From a virus, in the IMG/VR virus record IMGVR_UViG_3300031707_000063, positions 1 to 38,821 of that record: DNA of 38,821 nt. The stretch is one strand, 5' to 3'. Under the pieces are notes generated by a model that did no database searches, was not told the DNA's origin, and saw only the letters and a list, made by a program, of their open reading frames with translations. The translations under genes were made by a program, and so were the position numbers. Below are positions 1,851 to 26,697 of this stretch, piece after piece; position 1 is the stretch's first letter; every line of letters starts with the position of its first letter.

Positions 1851-3236
1851 ATGTGGGACACTCGTCACCGTCCCCTGCTCTTTGCCGACGTGCTTGGTCA
1901 AGAAGGTAACGTTCAGCTTCTCAAATCGAGGTTGCGGAACGGTACGTCTTTCGATACGAGCTACATTTTTTCCGGTGGGTTCGGCACTGGTAAGACAACT
2001 CTTGCTCGTATCCTTGCTAGAGCCATGCTCTGCATGAATCCGGATAAAACCGATCCGGAACCGTGCAATGCATGTCCAAACTGCGTAACCATATTGGAGG
2101 AGCGTCCAGGGGCCTTCACAGAGCGGGATTCCGCTAGCCAAGGCACAATCGATCACGTACGGCAGATCATGGAAGATTTGCCGTACGTAGTGCCAAATGC
2201 CCCGAAGCGTATTTACCTTTTCGATGAAGCACATCGAATGGGACCAGGAGCCCAGGACGTACTCCTGAAGCCTCTTGAGGAAAAGCAGATGGTCGGTATT
2301 TTCTGCACCACCGAGGCGGAAAAACTCCGACCGGCAATCCGGTCCAGAAGTGAAGAGTATTCGATCCGTAAAATCACTCGGGAAGACATCCTCAAGAGGA
2401 TGCACAAGATTTTAGCGGCTGAGTCCGTGGAGGCTCAGGATGATGCCGTCCTTACTATCATTGACTATTCCGGAGGTCACGTACGGGACGTGATCAATAA
2501 GTTGGAGATGGTCGCCCAGTTGGGCCCCATCACCATTGAAAATGTTCGCGAATACCTGCACTTGTCCGTTATCTCTCTCTACTACGAAATACTACTGCAC
2601 TTGAGTGACCCGAAGAAAGCCATTGACCTCTTGGACCGGGCCTGTGAGCAAGCCGCACCGGAGGATGTCTCTGCTGGTCTGGCCGAAGCAGCCATGAACT
2701 CTTATCGTGTGGCTAACGGCATGTTTGCCGATTTTGCTTACGTGGATAAGAGTTTGGCGGTTCAGGTTTATGCAAAATATCAGGCCAACGTGGTCAAATT
2801 CGCGTACTGGTTTTTGGGCTCACGCTTCACCACTAAACTGAGCCTCACTAGAGATATCGTGGTGTTCTCTCAAACTCCTGGAAACTTGCCTTTGGAAGGA
2901 CCAACTCCGCCATTAGTTTTCGTGGGGGGTCCGGCGGTTCAAGTTCCTCACACTACAGCTCAGACTCTACCGACACCGCCGGTTGTAACACCAAGCCCCA
3001 CACCGGGGCATATTGAATTTGCTGATCCAACAATCCCAACAGAGGTGGAGCTAGCGGTTGTGAATTCGGCGCTACCTAGAACTAGACGCCAAGTAGCCTC
3101 AGAGATGCCGTCACGATCGGACAAAGGAGCAAAAATGATGGTTCCAACTGAGTGGCGGCTGTGCTTTGACCAACTTATGCGAAAAAAGTTAGCAAATTCG
3201 TTGAGTTCCGTTGCTGAAATAGTTGGCGCAGTGTAA
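1851..3236 (+). CDS. dnaX: DNA polymerase III gamma/tau-like clamp loader ATPase
   Basis: Loads the sliding clamp on DNA for phage replication. The AAA+ core is clear: an RP...DVLGQ start (residues 7-17), Walker A GGFGTGKTT (42-50), a four-Cys zinc module (C61, C72, C75, C78) typical of DnaX, and Walker B LFDEAH with D125. The segment RPAIRSRSEEY takes the place of the usual SRC/arginine-finger region, but Cys is replaced by Ser. Residues from about 340 to 425 form a Pro/Thr-rich linker, followed by a short C-terminal helical tail. The 461 aa fit a gamma-length protein rather than full tau. Its 3' end overlaps or abuts the NusG-FEN gene. It likely works with the primase and flap nuclease encoded alongside. 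Confidence 0.92.
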   Translation: MWDTRHRPLLFADVLGQEGNVQLLKSRLRNGTSFDTSYIFSGGFGTGKTTLARILARAMLCMNPDKTDPEPCNACPNCVTILEERPGAFTERDSASQGTIDHVRQIMEDLPYVVPNAPKRIYLFDEAHRMGPGAQDVLLKPLEEKQMVGIFCTTEAEKLRPAIRSRSEEYSIRKITREDILKRMHKILAAESVEAQDDAVLTIIDYSGGHVRDVINKLEMVAQLGPITIENVREYLHLSVISLYYEILLHLSDPKKAIDLLDRACEQAAPEDVSAGLAEAAMNSYRVANGMFADFAYVDKSLAVQVYAKYQANVVKFAYWFLGSRFTTKLSLTRDIVVFSQTPGNLPLEGPTPPLVFVGGPAVQVPHTTAQTLPTPPVVTPSPTPGHIEFADPTIPTEVELAVVNSALPRTRRQVASEMPSRSDKGAKMMVPTEWRLCFDQLMRKKLANSLSSVAEIVGAV

Positions 3237-3249
3237 ACCCCCGAAGTTG

Positions 3250-5043
3250 ATGAGCGATCCGTCTATAGAGTGGGTGGTGCTTGAGCTAACGACTAAAGCC
3301 GAGGGGGAAGACCCGGATATAATTCGGGCATCCATTCGGCATCACATTCGTGATGCCGAAGTCTTTATCCCGGCGTCCGTCGTCCAGCAGGGTGGCAACA
3401 GGGTCTACCAGTACCTGGTGGACGGCTACGCTTTCATTCGGAACAAGCACCCCTCTAATCTGTATCGCCGACTAGACGATACGAAGTACGTACAGAACGT
3501 CCTCTATGTTCGTGTGAACAAGGACAAAAAACTCGCCACTATAACCGCCGACCAAGTTGAGAAGCTTCGTTCTCAGATCAAGGTGGAGGTTGACCAAGGG
3601 ATTGAGGTTGGGGACACCATAGTAATCACCTCCGGTCCGTACAAGAACATCTCCGCGATCGTCAAAGAGGATATTCAAGAGCAAGATTCGGTGCTGGTCC
3701 ACATCAAGCTCAGGTCTACAGATCGTTTGATCACGTTGCCTAGAGGGTTCCTTAGATTGGAGACTAAGTCCCCCACAATAGTCTATCGCGATCGTTTTCA
3801 GAGTATCTCGGACTGGACGCGATCGGCGCATTATTTGATGGCCTGGACACCGCGTGGGTTAGGTCGTCTTCCCGACGCCTCCCAAAAATTCTTTACCCTC
3901 ACTGCTTGGTTGAATAGGAGTGTCTCAACCTATGAGCTACTACGGTCGTACTATGCAACGCTCGATTTTGTTAATGTCCTTTCAAAAGCTACCGATTACG
4001 GGTTGCTGCATCGGGGGGCCACCCTGCGTGCTCGCATGTCGTCCATTCATGCCTTGGCAACCTCGTCTTTAGCCATGACAGCAAGACAGCTGGAGTTCCT
4101 TTATCTGACGGATGTCGTGGGTCGCGTGGCTGGTGCTTATTCGGAGTTGAAAGCGATGACTGAGAGACCTGAAGCCCCCGTAAACCTGATTGTAGATGGC
4201 ACTCAACTTTTTATTCGATGTTCTGAGGCTCCAGGTTTAGGTTCGTTGACGGACTCTACCGGTCGTCCAACGGGAGCGATTGTTGGGTTTTTGCGCAGCC
4301 TTGGGGGCTACAAGAAACGCTTTCCGAAGGCCGTAGTGTACGTCTGTTGGGACGGGAGTTCACAACGACGTAAGAATATGTACCCAGAATACAAAGCCAA
4401 TCGAAGCTCTCGTTCTAATCCATCGCAACCTGGTTCGTTGCCTTTTGGTTGGGGTTGGTTGCGGGAAGCTTTGCCGCTACTGGGCGTGTTCCAAGCCTTT
4501 AATCATGTGGAGGAGGCCGATGACGTGATGGCGTCCTTGGTCCGAGGGCCGCTATTAGGCCAACCGAATGTCATGATCACCACGGATAGAGACTTGCTTC
4601 AGCTAGTAACGGAGTTCACACATCAGTTGTGCCCGGCCGTGGGTGCAGGGAAAGAGAAGCTTTACGATTTGGATTTAGTGAAAGAGGAGTATGGAGTCAA
4701 ACCGCCCACATTAGTACACGTTAGGGCGCTTAGTGGTGATAGCTCCGACAATATTTCGGGCGTCCCTAATTTTGGGTTGAAAACCGCAAGCAAACTCATT
4801 AGTATGCACGGTTCGGTCGGCGCACTTTTGTCGTCCAACCTGGCGGGTCTAACTAAGAGTCAAGTCGCTAACTTGTTAGCGAGTGAGAAGCAAGTCCGTT
4901 TGAACGTGGAGTTATTGACGCTCTGCGATGTGCCCTACGAACAGATTGAATCGAACCCAGATCAGATTGAAGTAGAAGCTAGGCTAAAGGCTCTGGAAAT
5001 TAAGCCTGATCCAATTCTAGCAGCATTCTTCCCGCGTATCTGA
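3250..5043 (+). CDS. NusG-like NGN-KOW domain fused to 5'-3' flap exonuclease
   Basis: One continuous 597-residue frame with two unrelated modules. Residues 6-110 look like a NusG NGN domain: W8 near the start, then EVFIP, LVDGYAFIR and LYRRLDDTKYVQNVL. Residues 116-170 look like a KOW domain (VGDTIVITSGPYKNISAIV). Residues 171-302 are a helical segment I cannot place. Residues 303-597 form a T5/Taq-type FEN: D316 in LIVDGTQLF, D368 and the YPEYKANR helix, EEADD (421-425), TTDRDLLQLV with D446/D448, and GDSSDN (496-501) before the H3TH motif. NusG proteins bind RNA polymerase; FENs remove primers and flaps. I chose ATG 3250 because it places the NGN Trp correctly; TTG 3223 is the upstream alternative. 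The two activities in one chain are unusual. Confidence 0.88.
   Translation: MSDPSIEWVVLELTTKAEGEDPDIIRASIRHHIRDAEVFIPASVVQQGGNRVYQYLVDGYAFIRNKHPSNLYRRLDDTKYVQNVLYVRVNKDKKLATITADQVEKLRSQIKVEVDQGIEVGDTIVITSGPYKNISAIVKEDIQEQDSVLVHIKLRSTDRLITLPRGFLRLETKSPTIVYRDRFQSISDWTRSAHYLMAWTPRGLGRLPDASQKFFTLTAWLNRSVSTYELLRSYYATLDFVNVLSKATDYGLLHRGATLRARMSSIHALATSSLAMTARQLEFLYLTDVVGRVAGAYSELKAMTERPEAPVNLIVDGTQLFIRCSEAPGLGSLTDSTGRPTGAIVGFLRSLGGYKKRFPKAVVYVCWDGSSQRRKNMYPEYKANRSSRSNPSQPGSLPFGWGWLREALPLLGVFQAFNHVEEADDVMASLVRGPLLGQPNVMITTDRDLLQLVTEFTHQLCPAVGAGKEKLYDLDLVKEEYGVKPPTLVHVRALSGDSSDNISGVPNFGLKTASKLISMHGSVGALLSSNLAGLTKSQVANLLASEKQVRLNVELLTLCDVPYEQIESNPDQIEVEARLKALEIKPDPILAAFFPRI
4142..4158 (+). promoter_or_regulatory. 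Possible internal ribosome site and start for a standalone FEN
   Basis: CGGAG at 4142-4146 lies 9 bases before an in-frame ATG at 4156-4158, exactly where the flap-exonuclease module begins (M303). Initiation here would give a 295-residue protein, about the length of phage T5 FEN. Whether it is used cannot be told from sequence. Confidence 0.4.
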
Positions 5044-5078
5044 AGAGATGGCTCTGTCGAGCCTAAGAGGTGTTCAAT

Positions 5079-5717
5079 ATGTCGAGTGGCTATGTGATAC
5101 CGGTAGACCCGTCAGAACTGTCTAATCGTTTTGCAGCCGCCGACGAAGCGGAATTTGAATTCGAGGGTGCACCGGCCCACATGCCGGACATAGAGCTAGA
5201 GGCCTTGTTCTCTAGTGACGATTACAATAATCGAATTTTGCCGCTACTCGACAAGATCCCAGAACGCGAAGCGGACTTGATTGACCTCTATTACATGAGG
5301 AAGAAGCGTCAAGCCGATATCGCTGAAATTTTTGACGTGACCCAAGCTGCCATCTCTTACCGTTTAGATCGAGGGGTTCAGCGTCTCAAGTTCCTGTTGT
5401 CCATTCCTGAGGTTGAGGAAGACGACATGCGGCGTGATCTGGCCGAAATCTTTGATCAAATCGACATCGACATCTTGGTGGGGATGTGGGTAACGACGTG
5501 TCAATCTGAGGTCGCTAGTAAACTCAAGCTTACTCAGGGGCGTGTACGTCACCGTTTTTTTAAGGCCGTGGAAGTGCTCAAGACGGCCGCCGAAAACGAC
5601 GACAAATACAGCCCTTACAGCAAAATCTTTTCTTCCATATCTTCCAAGAATTTCAACATTTTACGAGCCGTGGCGCTCCCACAATGGCAGAATAGAGGGC
5701 TAGATCGTTGTATATAA
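5079..5717 (+). CDS. Sigma-70 region-4-like tandem helix-turn-helix protein
   Basis: 212-residue DNA-binding protein, probably a phage sigma-like or transcription factor. A helical stretch LLDKIPEREADLIDLYYMR (56-74) followed by the helix-turn-helix KRQADIAEIFDVTQAAISY (76-94) and a basic recognition end RGVQRLK matches sigma region 4. A second helix-turn-helix (about 141-168, SEVASKLKLTQGRVRHRFFKA) repeats the pattern. Conserved sigma regions 2 and 3 are not seen, so it is not a full primary sigma factor. AAGAGG at 5065-5070 lies 8 bases before ATG 5079, so I prefer this start over GTG 5070. It follows the NusG-FEN gene and precedes the virion block, fitting a role in switching to late transcription, but that is inference. 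Confidence 0.7.
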   Translation: MSSGYVIPVDPSELSNRFAAADEAEFEFEGAPAHMPDIELEALFSSDDYNNRILPLLDKIPEREADLIDLYYMRKKRQADIAEIFDVTQAAISYRLDRGVQRLKFLLSIPEVEEDDMRRDLAEIFDQIDIDILVGMWVTTCQSEVASKLKLTQGRVRHRFFKAVEVLKTAAENDDKYSPYSKIFSSISSKNFNILRAVALPQWQNRGLDRCI

Positions 5718-6432: not shown

Positions 6433-7326
6433 CCAGTTCCATCCAGACTCCAATTTCAGGACTACCAATTCGAGGTCATTCTGACGAATGGTCGTTGGAA
6501 GTGGACTACCCGTGTTGATGTATCCAAGTCGTTGGCGACGACGTTAATTAGGGATGTAATTACGCCCTACGGCCTCTTGCGGGACACCATCCCGATTCCC
6601 GGTGAGGTTGTTCAGGCGATGGCGGACTCCATCACGGAAGTCCAGCAGTCGTACACCCCAAGCATCTTGCTCAGTCCTACGGCGCTGATATTTGTGCTGG
6701 ATGAAGGACGTGGGGTATCTGCGGCACAGTCGGTTCAGATTATGAACAATGGGATATTTGGGTCTTTGTTGGGGGTGTCAATCACGTCGTCCGTTCCGTT
6801 CGTGTTTTCGATCCCCGCGAATGTGAGTGGTCTTGCGGCCAATGAGTCAGGCAGTTTCGATGTGTCGGCGGATAGCCTGAATCTGCTGTCCTTGGGTAGC
6901 CCCTATTCAGCACTCCTGACCGTGCAGAGTCCTCAGGCTACAAACAGCCCCCAGGTGATCCCTGTCAATGTCGTGGTTCGACCTAAGGCTGTGATCGCTA
7001 CTTCGGTGGCGGGTCTAAACTTCAACGTTGCGGCACCGCTGAGCGGGTCGTTCCCTCCTATCCCGTCGCAGCAGTTCATGCTTACGAACACCGGGGATCC
7101 GGCTTCTGTTCTGGACTACCAGATCCGGAAGCTCACAGGGGTTCCGTGGGTCGTGAGTGTAGCTCCCGTCTACGGTTCACTGAACGGTGGGGGCGGTCAA
7201 CCCGTTACCGTAGTTGTGGTGCCTACGCCGGGTATGGGTCCTGGTACGTATACCGAGACACTTAGGATCACGGGCTACAGCTCGAACATGACTCTAGACG
7301 TTTTGGTCACTCTCAACATCTCGTGA
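6418..7326 (+). CDS. Virion protein with two BACON/Ig-like domains
   Basis: 302 residues. The N-terminal ~75 residues form an unknown globular part (RLQFQDYQFEVILTNGRWKW). Then come two beta-sandwich repeats (about 80-190 and 195-302) with features of BACON or choice-of-anchor Ig-like domains: LSPTALIFVLDEG, QIMNNG and SVPFVFSIP in the first; LNFNVAAPLSG, QFMLTNTGDPA, GVPWVVSVAP and GTYTETLRITG in the second. Such domains often decorate phage capsids or tails and may bind carbohydrate. ATG 6418 is chosen over the upstream in-frame GTGs (6412, 6415). The start sits in a hairpin loop (6407-6432), suggesting translational control. It overlaps or abuts the following homing endonuclease. Confidence 0.75.
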   Translation: MRPLLPVPSRLQFQDYQFEVILTNGRWKWTTRVDVSKSLATTLIRDVITPYGLLRDTIPIPGEVVQAMADSITEVQQSYTPSILLSPTALIFVLDEGRGVSAAQSVQIMNNGIFGSLLGVSITSSVPFVFSIPANVSGLAANESGSFDVSADSLNLLSLGSPYSALLTVQSPQATNSPQVIPVNVVVRPKAVIATSVAGLNFNVAAPLSGSFPPIPSQQFMLTNTGDPASVLDYQIRKLTGVPWVVSVAPVYGSLNGGGGQPVTVVVVPTPGMGPGTYTETLRITGYSSNMTLDVLVTLNIS

Positions 7327-7331
7327 TCACT

Positions 7332-7727
7332 ATGAGTGAAGGCGTATGCATAGCATGTAACAAGCTTGGCCCTTTAAAACGGGACAGACAGTCTGAACTA
7401 GCAGTACAGACAACTTCTTTTGATTTTACCTCTGCTCTAGGACGTAAAGCTTACCAGCGTAAGTACCGTCTTCAGCGTACTTATGGTCTCACTATTGAGC
7501 AATTTGATTGGGTGGTGATGCAGCAACATTCAAAATGCGCAGTTTGCAAAACTGCGTTGGGTTCAGGCAGGTCGTGTCACGTGGATCACGATCATGTGAC
7601 TGGTAAGGTCAGAGGGGTTCTGTGCATTAACTGCAATGTAGGTATAGCAACTGCCAGGGATAAAGTTGAAGTTCTTGCCTCGGCTATGACCTATCTGCAT
7701 AACAACCAGGTGATGGTGATGATATGA
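7332..7727 (+). CDS. Endonuclease VII-type HNH homing endonuclease
   Basis: 131-residue free-standing homing endonuclease of the recombination endonuclease VII (His-Me finger) family. YGLTIEQFDWVVMQQ is followed by zinc-binding CAVC, the catalytic VDHDH, GKVRGVLC and CINCN. An N-terminal CIAC pair is also present. Such enzymes cut empty alleles of neighbouring phage genes and spread by repair. Base composition is visibly AT-richer than the adjoining virion genes, consistent with later arrival. The frame is also open from GTG 7323, which overlaps the previous stop as GTGA; ATG 7332 is the alternative chosen. The 3' end overlaps the next gene by ATGA. Confidence 0.88.
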   Translation: MSEGVCIACNKLGPLKRDRQSELAVQTTSFDFTSALGRKAYQRKYRLQRTYGLTIEQFDWVVMQQHSKCAVCKTALGSGRSCHVDHDHVTGKVRGVLCINCNVGIATARDKVEVLASAMTYLHNNQVMVMI

Positions 7728-12802: not shown

Positions 12803-14872
12803 GTGCCACCTAAGAAAAAACCATCTGGGGATGGCATTGCGAGTCTTATTCGGGACGCTGGTGCTCGGGCTAAGCTCGCTGTAGAGCATAAGCAACAAGC
12901 TCTAGACCATGCGGCAGCGGTAGAGCTGGACCCGAGTGCTGAGCTTATCGTGGATGAAATTCGTCCATTTAAGCCCAGGATCTTCAACATCCTAGAGTAC
13001 ATCGAGCAGTCCTGGGGACTGGGGATGAAGCTGTTCCCGGCACAGCGCTTCATCGTCAAGCTCTACTACCACCTTCCGCTTGAGGAAAAGGAGAAGACGA
13101 TCGAGGTCCGAGACATGCTCGGATCCAAGATCCTGCACTACTTCACCGAGAAGGAGTACCTCAAGTTCCTTTACGAAGACGGCCGCTGCAACATTGGAGA
13201 GCAGGATCACGAGAGACGTGAGCTTGTGTTGGCCATTGGCCGCAGGGCAGGAAAAACTACATTATCTGGAATCTTTGCCAGCTACGAGGTCTACCGTCTC
13301 CTGAACCTTGGCAACCCGCAGGAATACTACGGCCTCCCGAACGGCAACCGCATTCAGATCATCTCGGTCGCCACGGACAAGGACCAGGCGGGTATCTTGT
13401 TCAACGAGGTGACCACGCACTTGGCGAAGTGCGAGTATTTCAAGCCTTACGTTGCGAACAACACGCTCAGTCACATTCAGTTCCGAACCCCGTACGACAT
13501 TTCCAGGTTTGGCCCCTCAGCCCGGCACCAGAACGGCAAGTTCGTCTCGTTCAACGGCAAGGCTACGCTGCGCGTCACCTTCAAGTCCTGCATCGCAAAG
13601 GGCCTTCGTGGTTCCGGTAACGTGGTCGTCATAATGGACGAGATGGCCCACTACCAGGACAAGGGGCAGTCGAGCGCCAAGGACATTTACGACGCCGTTA
13701 CGCCGTCTACCGCCGCCTTCTCGCCCAAGACTTTGGACGCGAAGGGGCAGCTCATGCCGATCGTGAAGCCGGACGGAACGACCTATCCGGTCGAGTCTCG
13801 GATCATTACGATTTCGTCCCCGCTGAACAAGCACGGGCAGTTCTACGACCTGTACTACAAGGCGATGAGCCGGGCCCCGGGGTCGGACAACATTCTGGCG
13901 ATTCAAGCCCCAACATGGGAGGTGAACCCCACCCTACCCTCGTCCTATTACGTTCAGAAGTACCACTCGGACCCGGCGGTGTTCCTCACGGAGCACGGCG
14001 CTCAGTTCAGCGATCGTGTCCGAGGTTGGATTGAGCGTGAGTCGGATCTGGTTGAGTGCGTTGAACCTGATCTGCGGCCACAGGTCATGGGCATTCCCCG
14101 GTACCCGTACCAGATGGGGATCGATATCGGACTCGTGGGCGACGGTACCGCGATTGCGATCACCTGCGACATCAATGGCAAGGTGCTGTTGGCGTACCAC
14201 GAGTATTGGCAGGCAGGTGTGGATTGGCGTGAATCGAATCCGCATCTCGGCAGCAACTACTCGACCGACTATTGCAAGGGTTTGGCCACGGTAGATCGCC
14301 TGGATTTCGAGGAGATTGGCAATTGGATCCACAAGCTCTCCAAGCGCTTCTTTATTACAGACGGCCTCTTTGACCGCTGGAACGGCATCCCGTTAGAGCA
14401 GGCGTTGCTCAAGAAAGGGTTGACTCAATTCAAGAGTGAATACTTCCAACGTGACCTGGCTTCACGCATTTACCAGAACACCAAGATGCTGATGTTCGAT
14501 AAGAGCCTCCGGTTATACGACTTCCCGAGGGGCACAGGGGCTAAGCACTCGCTGCTCCTTGAGGAGCTTCTCCAGCTACAGGCTCAACAGATGTCCAAGA
14601 ACATTGTGGTGGTGCAGGCCCCTCAGACAGCAGGGCACCACGATGACTTGAGTGATGCCCTGGTTCGGGCCATTTGGCTTACCTCTGAGCGCATGCGCAA
14701 TGAGAAGTATGTGTACGGGAACTCGGCGGGTGTGCCCGATCATGCGGGTTCAGCGATGAGCGCTGGACGCTACCAGATGATGCGTGCTCGGAGTCACGGG
14801 GGTTTCTCGGATCGCACCGTGAGCAAGAACATTGGCCTCCGGCAGCGTTCTGCGCTGCGGGTCCCTAGGTAA
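12803..14872 (+). CDS. terL: Terminase large subunit (DNA packaging motor)
   Basis: 689 residues. Packages DNA into the prohead using an ATPase and cuts concatemers with a nuclease. Walker A is GRRAGKTT (146-153); Walker B is VVVIMDEM with D279 and E280. The C-terminal RNase H-fold nuclease shows MGIDIGLVGDG with D441, and the last metal-binding site HHDDLSDALV at 612-621. The N-terminal ~70 residues are an extra basic/helical extension. It starts at GTG 12803. Unlike the protease gene it carries no intein or intron. Codon choice is GC-rich and uniform with the neighbouring head genes. It acts with the portal at 17990. Confidence 0.95.
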   Translation: MPPKKKPSGDGIASLIRDAGARAKLAVEHKQQALDHAAAVELDPSAELIVDEIRPFKPRIFNILEYIEQSWGLGMKLFPAQRFIVKLYYHLPLEEKEKTIEVRDMLGSKILHYFTEKEYLKFLYEDGRCNIGEQDHERRELVLAIGRRAGKTTLSGIFASYEVYRLLNLGNPQEYYGLPNGNRIQIISVATDKDQAGILFNEVTTHLAKCEYFKPYVANNTLSHIQFRTPYDISRFGPSARHQNGKFVSFNGKATLRVTFKSCIAKGLRGSGNVVVIMDEMAHYQDKGQSSAKDIYDAVTPSTAAFSPKTLDAKGQLMPIVKPDGTTYPVESRIITISSPLNKHGQFYDLYYKAMSRAPGSDNILAIQAPTWEVNPTLPSSYYVQKYHSDPAVFLTEHGAQFSDRVRGWIERESDLVECVEPDLRPQVMGIPRYPYQMGIDIGLVGDGTAIAITCDINGKVLLAYHEYWQAGVDWRESNPHLGSNYSTDYCKGLATVDRLDFEEIGNWIHKLSKRFFITDGLFDRWNGIPLEQALLKKGLTQFKSEYFQRDLASRIYQNTKMLMFDKSLRLYDFPRGTGAKHSLLLEELLQLQAQQMSKNIVVVQAPQTAGHHDDLSDALVRAIWLTSERMRNEKYVYGNSAGVPDHAGSAMSAGRYQMMRARSHGGFSDRTVSKNIGLRQRSALRVPR

Positions 14873-23934: not shown

Positions 23935-26697
23935 ATGGCCTTCTTGAAGTACGCCAAAGCGACTGTTCAGAAGCCGGGGATTAAATTCGCGGAGTGGGAC
24001 GCTCTGCGTCGTACCGCATTGTCCCCCGCTCCGGACTTTCAGAAGCGTACTGCCAAGGTCATTCTCGAAGAGTACGACCCTGCCAAATACATGTTGAGCC
24101 ATGCGACCATCGTGGCGTCAGTCAACGTTGATAACGCTCAGGCCCCATTGGGGCGTCACTATGTGGACGGCTTCGAGGTGGATCGGCAGTACCCGGACTA
24201 CTACGTCACTGCCGATACGAGCCAGTACATCAATAACAACAACGATGCGTTTGAGCGTAAGTTGCTGTTAGCGTCGTTCAAGACGTTCATTGGGGCGCAC
24301 AGTTACGTAGAGCACGTGCAGATTCCTGAGCTTGCTAAGGGTCGCATCATCGATGCCGCAGCTCGGGATGTTGGTGACTCCGTGTACATCGACATTCTGA
24401 TTGCGAACGACATCAAGCATGCTGACTTGATTCGTGCGATCAAGAGCGGGCAGCTCGGTACGTTGAGCATGGGGTGTTTTACCCCCGGTGCTCAAGTGAC
24501 CATGTTCGATGGTACTCGTCTGCCAATAGAAGAGGTAGCAGTCGGGGATATCGTGATGTCCCACACAGGGAATCAGCGGGAAGTTACAGCTAAGCAGATT
24601 AAGGTGGGGCGCTTTGGGATGAAGCGTCTTGATGTGGTTGGGGTCCCCTCCCCTATCGAGGCCACAAACATCCACCCATTTTTTGTACTACGTGCGCCCG
24701 AGCTTTGTGCATGTGGGTGCGGAGAGCGTTTAACCTACAGCCCAACAGAAAATGTTCAGCGCCGTGTCTCTAAGCGTTTCAGAATTGGGCATCAGATGCG
24801 GGTTTTTAATCCGAATGGCCCCTATTCTCTTGCAGAAGCACGAGAACGTCGTACTCGTTTGAGTCAGATTCATACGAGGCAAGAGTTGGTTGAGGTACAG
24901 GCTGATCAACTTCAGGTTGGTGACTTACTGTGCTTTCCTAAATCTCAGGTTGCAGAAGTCGGTGGTGGCACTCCGGGTAAGGCCCGCTTGTTGGGGTATT
25001 TCTTAGCCGAAGGATCCTTCCTTAAGCGTAAAGGTGTTCCAACTGAGGTCCAGTTCAATTTTTCTATGGCCGAGAAGTCTACCTTCGTAGCTGAGGTGGC
25101 TAGCCTGATCCGTCAGGAGTTCCCTGAGGCGGGTAATCCTTGGATTCAAGAACGTGTGGATCGTGATACCTGTGTTGTCCACGCTACAGGCAAGGATATG
25201 GTTCAGTGGTTTCACGCACATGGTGGAGAATACTCGGATCGTAAATGCTTGTCCGCTGAGGTTATGGGGTGGTCTAAGGACCTGCAAATCCAACTTATCG
25301 GTACATGGCTGAATGGTGACGGTACTATTAGGTCTGATTTGGCGTCCGGCGCAAGTGGCACTACCACCTCTTATTCTTTGGCGTGCCAGTTGCATATGTT
25401 GTTCATGCGTTGTGGGTTGTTCGCACGCATGTACTGTAGTTTTGATGGGCACTCCTGTGCGGTCCAAGAGGCCGTCAATGGTGGTCGATCACTTCGTGGT
25501 CTAAGTAATGGACGGTTAGCAGCTTTCACCTTGAACACTAATCAAAGGGGTTCTAAGGCTCTTGAGTTTGCTACAACTAAAATGAGTGCCGGTGTTGGGG
25601 AAAACTCTCCGTGGCGTGAGTCTGAGACGCACGTCTTCTTCCCCGTCCGGTCGATCGAGAGCTTCCAGTATGAGGGGCCTGTCTACGATATGACGGTCGA
25701 AGAAGACCATTCCTATATCGTAGAGGGTGTAGCGGTTCACAACTGTTCCACTTCGAGCACGACCTGCACGAAGTGCGGCAATGTTGCTAAGGACGAGACA
25801 CAGCTCTGCGCCTGTATCCGCTTCTTCAAGGGCAGTGAATTCTTTGACGAGTTTGGGACCAAGCGTAAGGTTGCAGAACTGTGCGGTCATTACACCGACC
25901 CGAACTCAGTAAAGTTCATTGAGGCCAGTTGGGTTGCGAACCCCGCCTTCAAGGGCGCAGTGATTCGTAACATCCTTACGGCGAAAGAACTCAAGGGCGT
26001 CGAAGACAAGATGCATCTTGCGTTCACTATCCCGACTCCTGCTGCGGATCCTAACGCTATGCGTAAGGCCGCTCGTATGCTCTTTTCGCAGCAAGAGGCC
26101 CCAGCTCAAGCGCCAGCTCAAGAGCTACCGGCTGATCCTGCAACGGATGCCGCACCTCCGGGTGAGCAGGCCGATCCAATGCAAAAGACGGTGGACGACC
26201 TGGCAAAGGCCCTGCGTGACCAAGCTATTGAGAAGGTCCGTAAGGAGATGAACGAGGGCGAGGCGGGTAAGGTCAAAGAGGTCGTTGACGAGAACAAGCA
26301 GAACGAATCGCTGATTCGGTCGGCCATGAAATCCCCCGAATGGCGTCGTGTGGCGAAATTCGTAATTTCTTTTGTTGGGAAATCTCAGGCTAGGAAGGTG
26401 CTGATCGGCCTTATCCACCACAAGGGTGGCGGTTGGAAGCAGGTACGTAACGCAGGGTTCACAGGTACAGACATGTTGGCCCTATCTCGCGTTATTGATG
26501 TGATGACCCAAAAAACTTCCATGGCCGGTGAAACAAGAGTTTATAGGACTGTCCTTAGTGTGGGCGGGACAGCCCCATATGGAGATGCAGAGACCTACTT
26601 GGCGGCTTGTCGTCAGGTACTAGGCCGGGTGGTAACCGGCAGCGAGGCAGCCAAGCTTCTTGAAAAAGGTCGCTTGTATGCTTTGGGCCGGTCGTGA
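23935..26697 (+). CDS. Prohead maturation protease, interrupted by an intein
   Basis: 920 codons; 497 residues after removal of the 423-residue intein. The extein resembles large-phage prohead core proteases: ATIVASVNVDN, GFEVDRQYPDYYVT, FIGAHSYVEH (H122 probable catalytic His), ARDVGDSVYIDILIAN, and GTLSMGC with S178 the probable nucleophile. After the intein come CTKCGN and CACIRF (zinc-binding), VAELCGHYTDPNSVKFIEASW and NPAFKGAVIRNIL. The C-terminal ~230 residues are a Pro/Ala/Gln linker plus a helical domain ending LLEKGRLYALGRS. It cleaves head proteins during maturation. The intein must splice out before the active site forms. Starts directly at the previous stop. Confidence 0.9.
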   Translation: MAFLKYAKATVQKPGIKFAEWDALRRTALSPAPDFQKRTAKVILEEYDPAKYMLSHATIVASVNVDNAQAPLGRHYVDGFEVDRQYPDYYVTADTSQYINNNNDAFERKLLLASFKTFIGAHSYVEHVQIPELAKGRIIDAAARDVGDSVYIDILIANDIKHADLIRAIKSGQLGTLSMGCFTPGAQVTMFDGTRLPIEEVAVGDIVMSHTGNQREVTAKQIKVGRFGMKRLDVVGVPSPIEATNIHPFFVLRAPELCACGCGERLTYSPTENVQRRVSKRFRIGHQMRVFNPNGPYSLAEARERRTRLSQIHTRQELVEVQADQLQVGDLLCFPKSQVAEVGGGTPGKARLLGYFLAEGSFLKRKGVPTEVQFNFSMAEKSTFVAEVASLIRQEFPEAGNPWIQERVDRDTCVVHATGKDMVQWFHAHGGEYSDRKCLSAEVMGWSKDLQIQLIGTWLNGDGTIRSDLASGASGTTTSYSLACQLHMLFMRCGLFARMYCSFDGHSCAVQEAVNGGRSLRGLSNGRLAAFTLNTNQRGSKALEFATTKMSAGVGENSPWRESETHVFFPVRSIESFQYEGPVYDMTVEEDHSYIVEGVAVHNCSTSSTTCTKCGNVAKDETQLCACIRFFKGSEFFDEFGTKRKVAELCGHYTDPNSVKFIEASWVANPAFKGAVIRNILTAKELKGVEDKMHLAFTIPTPAADPNAMRKAARMLFSQQEAPAQAPAQELPADPATDAAPPGEQADPMQKTVDDLAKALRDQAIEKVRKEMNEGEAGKVKEVVDENKQNESLIRSAMKSPEWRRVAKFVISFVGKSQARKVLIGLIHHKGGGWKQVRNAGFTGTDMLALSRVIDVMTQKTSMAGETRVYRTVLSVGGTAPYGDAETYLAACRQVLGRVVTGSEAAKLLEKGRLYALGRS
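24475..25743 (+). mobile_element. LAGLIDADG intein in the prohead protease
   Basis: A complete intein of 423 residues, C181 to N603. Block A begins CFTPGAQVTMFDGTRLPIEE; block B contains ATNIHPFFVL; two LAGLIDADG motifs are LLGYFLAEGS and LIGTWLNGDG; block F is VYDMTVEEDHSYIV; block G is GVAVHN followed by C604. All splicing residues (Cys1, block B His, penultimate His, final Asn, Cys+1) are present, so splicing and homing both look intact. A CACGCGE module with a GHQMR end lies between block B and the first LAGLIDADG motif. DNA is AT-richer than the extein. Confidence 0.95.

Follow-up and report, generated by a model that had tools for sequence, protein, structure and literature searches.

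The window analyzed here is the whole of the virus record (38,821 bases). At positions 3250 to 5043 it contains a single open frame, which reads without interruption from an ATG at 3250 through the stop codon at 5043 and encodes 597 amino acids, as the first-pass annotation had reported. The predicted protein is a fusion comprising an NGN-KOW part (residues 1 to 172), a helical spacer (residues 173 to 308), and a FEN-type 5' nuclease (residues 309 to 597). Thirteen bases separate its ATG from the stop codon of the conserved upstream neighbor, a gene for a DnaX/RFC-type clamp loader (1851 to 3236). The conserved downstream neighbor encodes a sigma-region-4-like protein (5070 to 5717) with two region-4-type helix-turn-helix stretches, and a toprim primase-like protein encoded at 649 to 1353 belongs to the same conserved cluster. 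These genes and the domains of the fusion all lie on the plus strand.

The NGN domain was placed at residues 1 to 115 (3250 to 3594) by profile matches to NusG structures and by Foldseek matches of an AlphaFold2 model to NusG, RfaH, and Spt5, and the KOW domain was placed at residues 118 to 172 (3601 to 3765) by PF00467/PF23290 and profile matches to the PDB. Single-sequence searches with the N-terminal part gave weak scores, with Pfam matches to KOW (0.006), KOW5_SPT5 (0.0019), and NusG (0.14) that all fell short of the cut-offs and a PDB match to the NusG structure 2lq8 (4.2e-4); in PHROGs, a phage transcription antiterminator family matched the fusion protein (3.2e-4). A profile built from 35 N-domain sequences matched NusG structures from 5.8e-10 across both NGN and KOW and retrieved about 20 NusG/Spt5 entries, with NusG followed by Spt5 and the KOW protein L24. 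NusG, RfaH, and Spt5 also made up nearly the entire top of the Foldseek list when the N-domain AlphaFold model (pLDDT, 87.5) was compared with the PDB. Global TM-scores of this model were low (0.3 to 0.46), which we attribute to a probably flexible orientation of NGN relative to KOW; the isolated NusG KOW domain 2mi6 aligned with a TM-score of 0.77 by target length. By profile and fold, with NGN followed by KOW, the N terminus belongs to the NusG/RfaH/Spt5 family. The first-pass annotation had called residues 6 to 170 NusG-like and named the lack of any NGN/KOW match as grounds for rejection; the profile and Foldseek matches settle this in favor of the call.

The Y60-x-F62 motif (3427 to 3435) was invariant in 35 of 35 NGN sequences, including the standalone ones. 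Y60 and F62 align with Y54 and F56 of E. coli RfaH and putatively form the hydrophobic RNA polymerase-binding patch of the NGN domain. In RfaH, F56 is needed for RNA polymerase binding, and NusG has leucine at this site (PMC7593976). NusG contacts Rho through the KOW loop I164-F165-G166 (PMC7593976), whereas the fused members read L-R155-S156 at this position, R155-S156 (3712 to 3717) replacing the Rho-contacting F165-G166 of E. coli NusG. The R-S pair was invariant among fused members and not among the standalone outgroup proteins, and replacement of the Rho-contact loop is as expected of an RfaH-like factor that does not recruit Rho. The phage protein shares with NusG, RfaH, and Spt5 the order of NGN and KOW and the fold, and with RfaH the tyrosine and phenylalanine of the patch, but unlike them it has a helical spacer that links these domains to a nuclease. 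A review of NusG proteins mentions extra domains, DII of T. maritima being one example; the words fusion, fused, and nuclease are absent from its main text (PMC7819879).

The segment between the two modules (3766 to 4173), initially described as an unplaced helical segment, is indeed helical and can now be described as a fast-evolving spacer of about 100 to 205 amino acids among relatives. It is the fastest-changing part of the fusion (10 to 29% identity to the window). Among eleven relatives tested, internal repeats exceeded all shuffles in three (L020, L025, and L026) and were marginal in a fourth (L022). The spacer had only weak matches among solved structures; these were taken as chance, the proteins being unrelated and for the most part helical or coiled coil.

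The C-terminal part (4174 to 5040) matched the Pfam FEN models above cut-off over residues 313 to 564 (PF02739, 2.7e-23; PF01367, 1.2e-14), and both Pfam and Foldseek recovered a PIN-like N domain with an H3TH C domain. Foldseek searches with the model of the full protein returned FEN structures from 2.6e-19 (M. smegmatis FEN). Nine acidic residues (D316, D368, E422, D424, D425, D446, D448, D497, and D500) were invariant in 30 sequences, and by comparison with Taq and T5 FEN we take them to be the two-metal sites. Together with the Pfam matches, they uphold the earlier assignment of residues 303 to 597 as a FEN with the main motifs. The metal-site acids and the overall fold are shared with T5 D15, M. 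smegmatis FEN, E. coli ExoIX, and the PolA 5' nuclease domain, from all of which the phage protein differs by its added NGN-KOW and spacer. In L009 and related members the H3TH motif GxGxKTA of the C domain is often replaced by RVPKKxL, with the metal-site acids intact. A C-terminal ILxxFF was considered as a clamp-binding motif and dropped, as in comparison with Taq FEN it fits the usual end of a FEN domain.

An in-frame ATG (M303; 4156 to 4158) lies just ahead of the FEN core. A start codon (ATG, GTG, or TTG) occurred within 7 codons ahead of the core in 23 of 25 nonredundant fused members, compared to about 10 expected, and an ATG in 20 of the 25, compared to 2.8 expected, excesses whose significance is overstated because the members share ancestry. 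The junction codon may be a relic of the start of an unfused FEN gene or a working internal start, in which case a FEN-only product is possible. Shine-Dalgarno sequences were not consistently found at either the start of the frame or the internal ATG, which is uninformative for both starts.

Relatives were collected from viral contigs using the clamp-loader gene and then the fusion alignment as queries, which yielded more than 70 loci. Domain HMMs applied to stop-to-stop frames identified N- and C-terminal parts in a single frame in 32 distinct proteins including that of the window (frames of 568 to 688 amino acids), so that the same architecture, which the first-pass annotation had proposed to look for in related phages, is present in about 30 distinct proteins. 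Thirty fusion proteins were aligned, the other 29 being 35 to 63% identical to the window protein. A 4.4-kb contig (L002) matched the window region at 99.8% identity, with 10 single-nucleotide differences over 4,404 bases. An assembly join or frame artefact as the source of the fusion is vanishingly improbable and was dropped: no point in its support was found, the frame is kept in relatives on separate contigs, and the 10-difference variant is intact, which together exclude misassembly and leave the refutation proposed in the first-pass annotation without effect. The fusion is real and conserved. In close pairs, dN/dS was 0.03 to 0.20 for the N part, 0.06 to 0.12 for the C part, and 0.08 to 0.21 for the spacer; all three parts are under purifying selection. 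The AlphaFold model of the full-length fusion (pLDDT, 85; pTM, 0.52) does not fix the relative placement of the domains.

In fused relatives with enough flanking sequence, a conserved gene order led from the toprim primase through a phage metallopeptidase and the clamp loader to the fusion and the sigma-region-4-like gene, and the longest records with the fusion were huge-phage records of 412 to 529 kb. The sigma-like gene was kept in all relatives having that flank. The suggestion that the locus is a phage transcription unit has to be amended, as toprim primase, clamp loader, and FEN together make up a replication cluster and the adjoining sigma-like protein has no region 2 match; the latter is perhaps not a true sigma factor. 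None of 50,697 GenBank phage records covered at least 80% of the fusion, and in that collection the N domain alone matched only LR745208. Among the best 80 of 501 relatives on bacterial contigs there was no fusion, the matches beginning only from about residue 291. Searches of the open-licence literature turned up no description of a NusG-flap endonuclease fusion in phages or huge phages, in agreement with the earlier statement that none was known, and the main text of a huge-phage survey mentions neither NusG nor flap nucleases (PMC7162821).

Other arrangements of the two modules were found at the corresponding place. In three outgroup phages (L047, L049, and L052) the order is clamp loader, NGN-KOW gene, FEN gene, and sigma-like gene, and in the FEN tree these three group together (100/98), separate from the fused group. 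Their unfused FENs end in an ESYSLFD-type C terminus that resembles a clamp-binding peptide. L043 carries two overlapping genes with an ATGA junction; as it nests with the fused L022 in the FEN tree (100/98), it is most simply a fission of the fused gene. L042 is also split and lies near the base of the tree, its placement not being resolved. The refuting outcome that all relatives encode two genes thus applies to the three outgroup phages and the two split cases and not to the fused majority. A 30-kb viral contig (L050) encodes at 883 to 2328 a 482-amino-acid NGN-KOW::FEN protein without a spacer (N profile, 2.4e-11), possibly from a separate fusion event, and had no relatives of its type in the viral contigs besides itself. 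LR745208 (L088; 485 kb) has a standalone NGN-KOW gene (13273 to 13947, minus strand; 225 amino acids) between the clamp loader and sigma-like genes, and FEN was detected nowhere in that record.

Partner genes were examined in 14 large records, namely, 11 with the fusion, L043 with its re-split genes, and two with adjacent genes (L047 and L052). PF02739 detected exactly one FEN in each, which in the 11 fused records was the fusion itself. Matches to PF02357 were confined to the NGN of the fusion locus in 10 of the 14, the other four being carriers themselves, so that divergent NGN domains evade this model and a further copy could go unnoticed. Every record encoded PolA away from the fusion, with no 5' nuclease match in PolA. 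RpoB was found in none of the 14, and no sliding clamp was detected with the DnaN, PCNA, or gp45 Pfam models; these absences are provisional, as the records are linear and lack completeness estimates. Since no phage RpoB was found, host RNA polymerase is the likely partner of the NGN-KOW part, judged from gene content.

The explanation that we favor, to which we give about an even chance, is that the fusion is a bifunctional protein in which a processivity factor riding host RNA polymerase is tethered to the replicative 5' nuclease of the phage, and that it arose in a single lineage of huge phages, in which two neighbors within a replication/transcription cluster became fused. As in NusG, RfaH, and Spt5, the clamp helices of RNA polymerase, here that of the host, would be the docking site of the NGN domain, and the docked NGN-KOW would make transcription of the phage genome processive. 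The helical spacer would tether the phage's own flap endonuclease/5' exonuclease to this module, and the tethered FEN could then clear from the shared template the primer RNA and the RNA-DNA flaps that remain after replication or that transcription leaves as R-loops. About 30 distinct fused proteins, down to 35% identity and in one conserved locus, argue for this explanation, as do the NusG-type profile and fold, the invariant Y60/F62, the nine of nine FEN acids, purifying selection, and the gene content of the 14 large records (one FEN each, no NusG match outside this locus, PolA with no 5' nuclease match, and no RpoB), together with the adjacent unfused genes in the outgroup and the spacerless fusion in L050. 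Host RNA polymerase binding, nuclease activity, and the importance of the tether are what we infer. The earlier idea of a nuclease placed at transcribing RNA polymerase is likewise supported indirectly, by the conserved polymerase-contact residues, the lack of a detected phage RpoB, and the conserved neighborhood, the placement itself being presumed. The standalone NGN-KOW of LR745208, with no FEN detected, indicates that NGN-KOW does not need the nuclease; the re-split L043 and split L042 indicate that some phages can do without the covalent link; and the junction start codon would allow an untethered FEN. In its more specific form, which we consider possible at somewhat below an even chance, the protein would be a transcription-coupled flap endonuclease in which NGN-KOW, riding the polymerase over transcribed DNA, brings along the 5' nuclease that removes primers and R-loops and so physically couples transcription with replication in huge phages, possibly alongside a FEN-only product translated from an internal start.

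The main rival, which is tentative at perhaps a third of the total weight, is an incidental fusion of operon neighbors, with NGN-KOW acting in antitermination and FEN as an Okazaki nuclease, separately, the link serving only to fix equal amounts and free FEN perhaps arising from the internal start. Such a history would fit the adjacent unfused genes of the outgroup, the re-split L043 nested among fused members, the fast-evolving spacer of variable length, and the junction start codon (23 of 25 compared to about 10 expected, with significance inflated by shared ancestry). It fits less well with the persistence of the fusion, rarely split, in about 30 diverged proteins, with a second fusion type in L050 of possibly separate origin, and with purifying selection on the spacer as well.

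Replication-coupled late transcription of the T4 type is an unlikely reading, under which the fusion, clamp loader, and sigma-region-4-like protein would link RNA polymerase to replication intermediates and FEN would recognize or trim clamp-loading nicks and flaps. The gene order from clamp loader through fusion to sigma-like gene, kept in fused and outgroup loci alike, speaks for it, as does the activation of T4 late promoters by clamps loaded at nicks (PMC2988020). The likeness to T4 gp55/gp33/gp45 lies in the idea of a link between RNA polymerase and the replication machinery and in the adjoining clamp loader and sigma-like genes. However, the phage fusion carries an elongation-factor module, of a family that works in elongation and not initiation, no clamp was found with the three Pfam models, and its ILxxFF resembles a generic FEN end and not a clamp motif. 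Very improbable is a host takeover nuclease that rides host RNA polymerase and would nick or degrade the host DNA being transcribed: the union of a polymerase-binding module with a nuclease and the lack of a detected phage RpoB would suit it, but FENs are structure specific, and a location in the replication cluster as the only FEN found in large records indicates that the protein most likely serves phage replication.

As far as we have found, the fusion would be the first NGN-KOW factor known with a nuclease. Its retention through deep divergence in very large phages makes a transcription-replication link, a subject of long discussion, directly testable with one protein and suggests that many very large uncultured bacterial viruses physically tie transcription to replication by a fusion protein. 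It also suggests how huge phages might deal with R-loops, primer removal, and collisions on genomes of 400 to 500 kb.

Elsewhere in the window, in which no tRNA genes were found, a 920-amino-acid frame at 23935 to 26697 contains an intein (Hint/intein-splicing and LAGLIDADG matches at residues about 178 to 603) and adjoins a weak match to a head maturation protease. A small gene at 7323 to 7727, HNH-like by eye, is flanked by two conserved genes. A relative of it sits elsewhere in L042 and it is unmatched in the remaining relatives, so that it is probably a mobile insertion.
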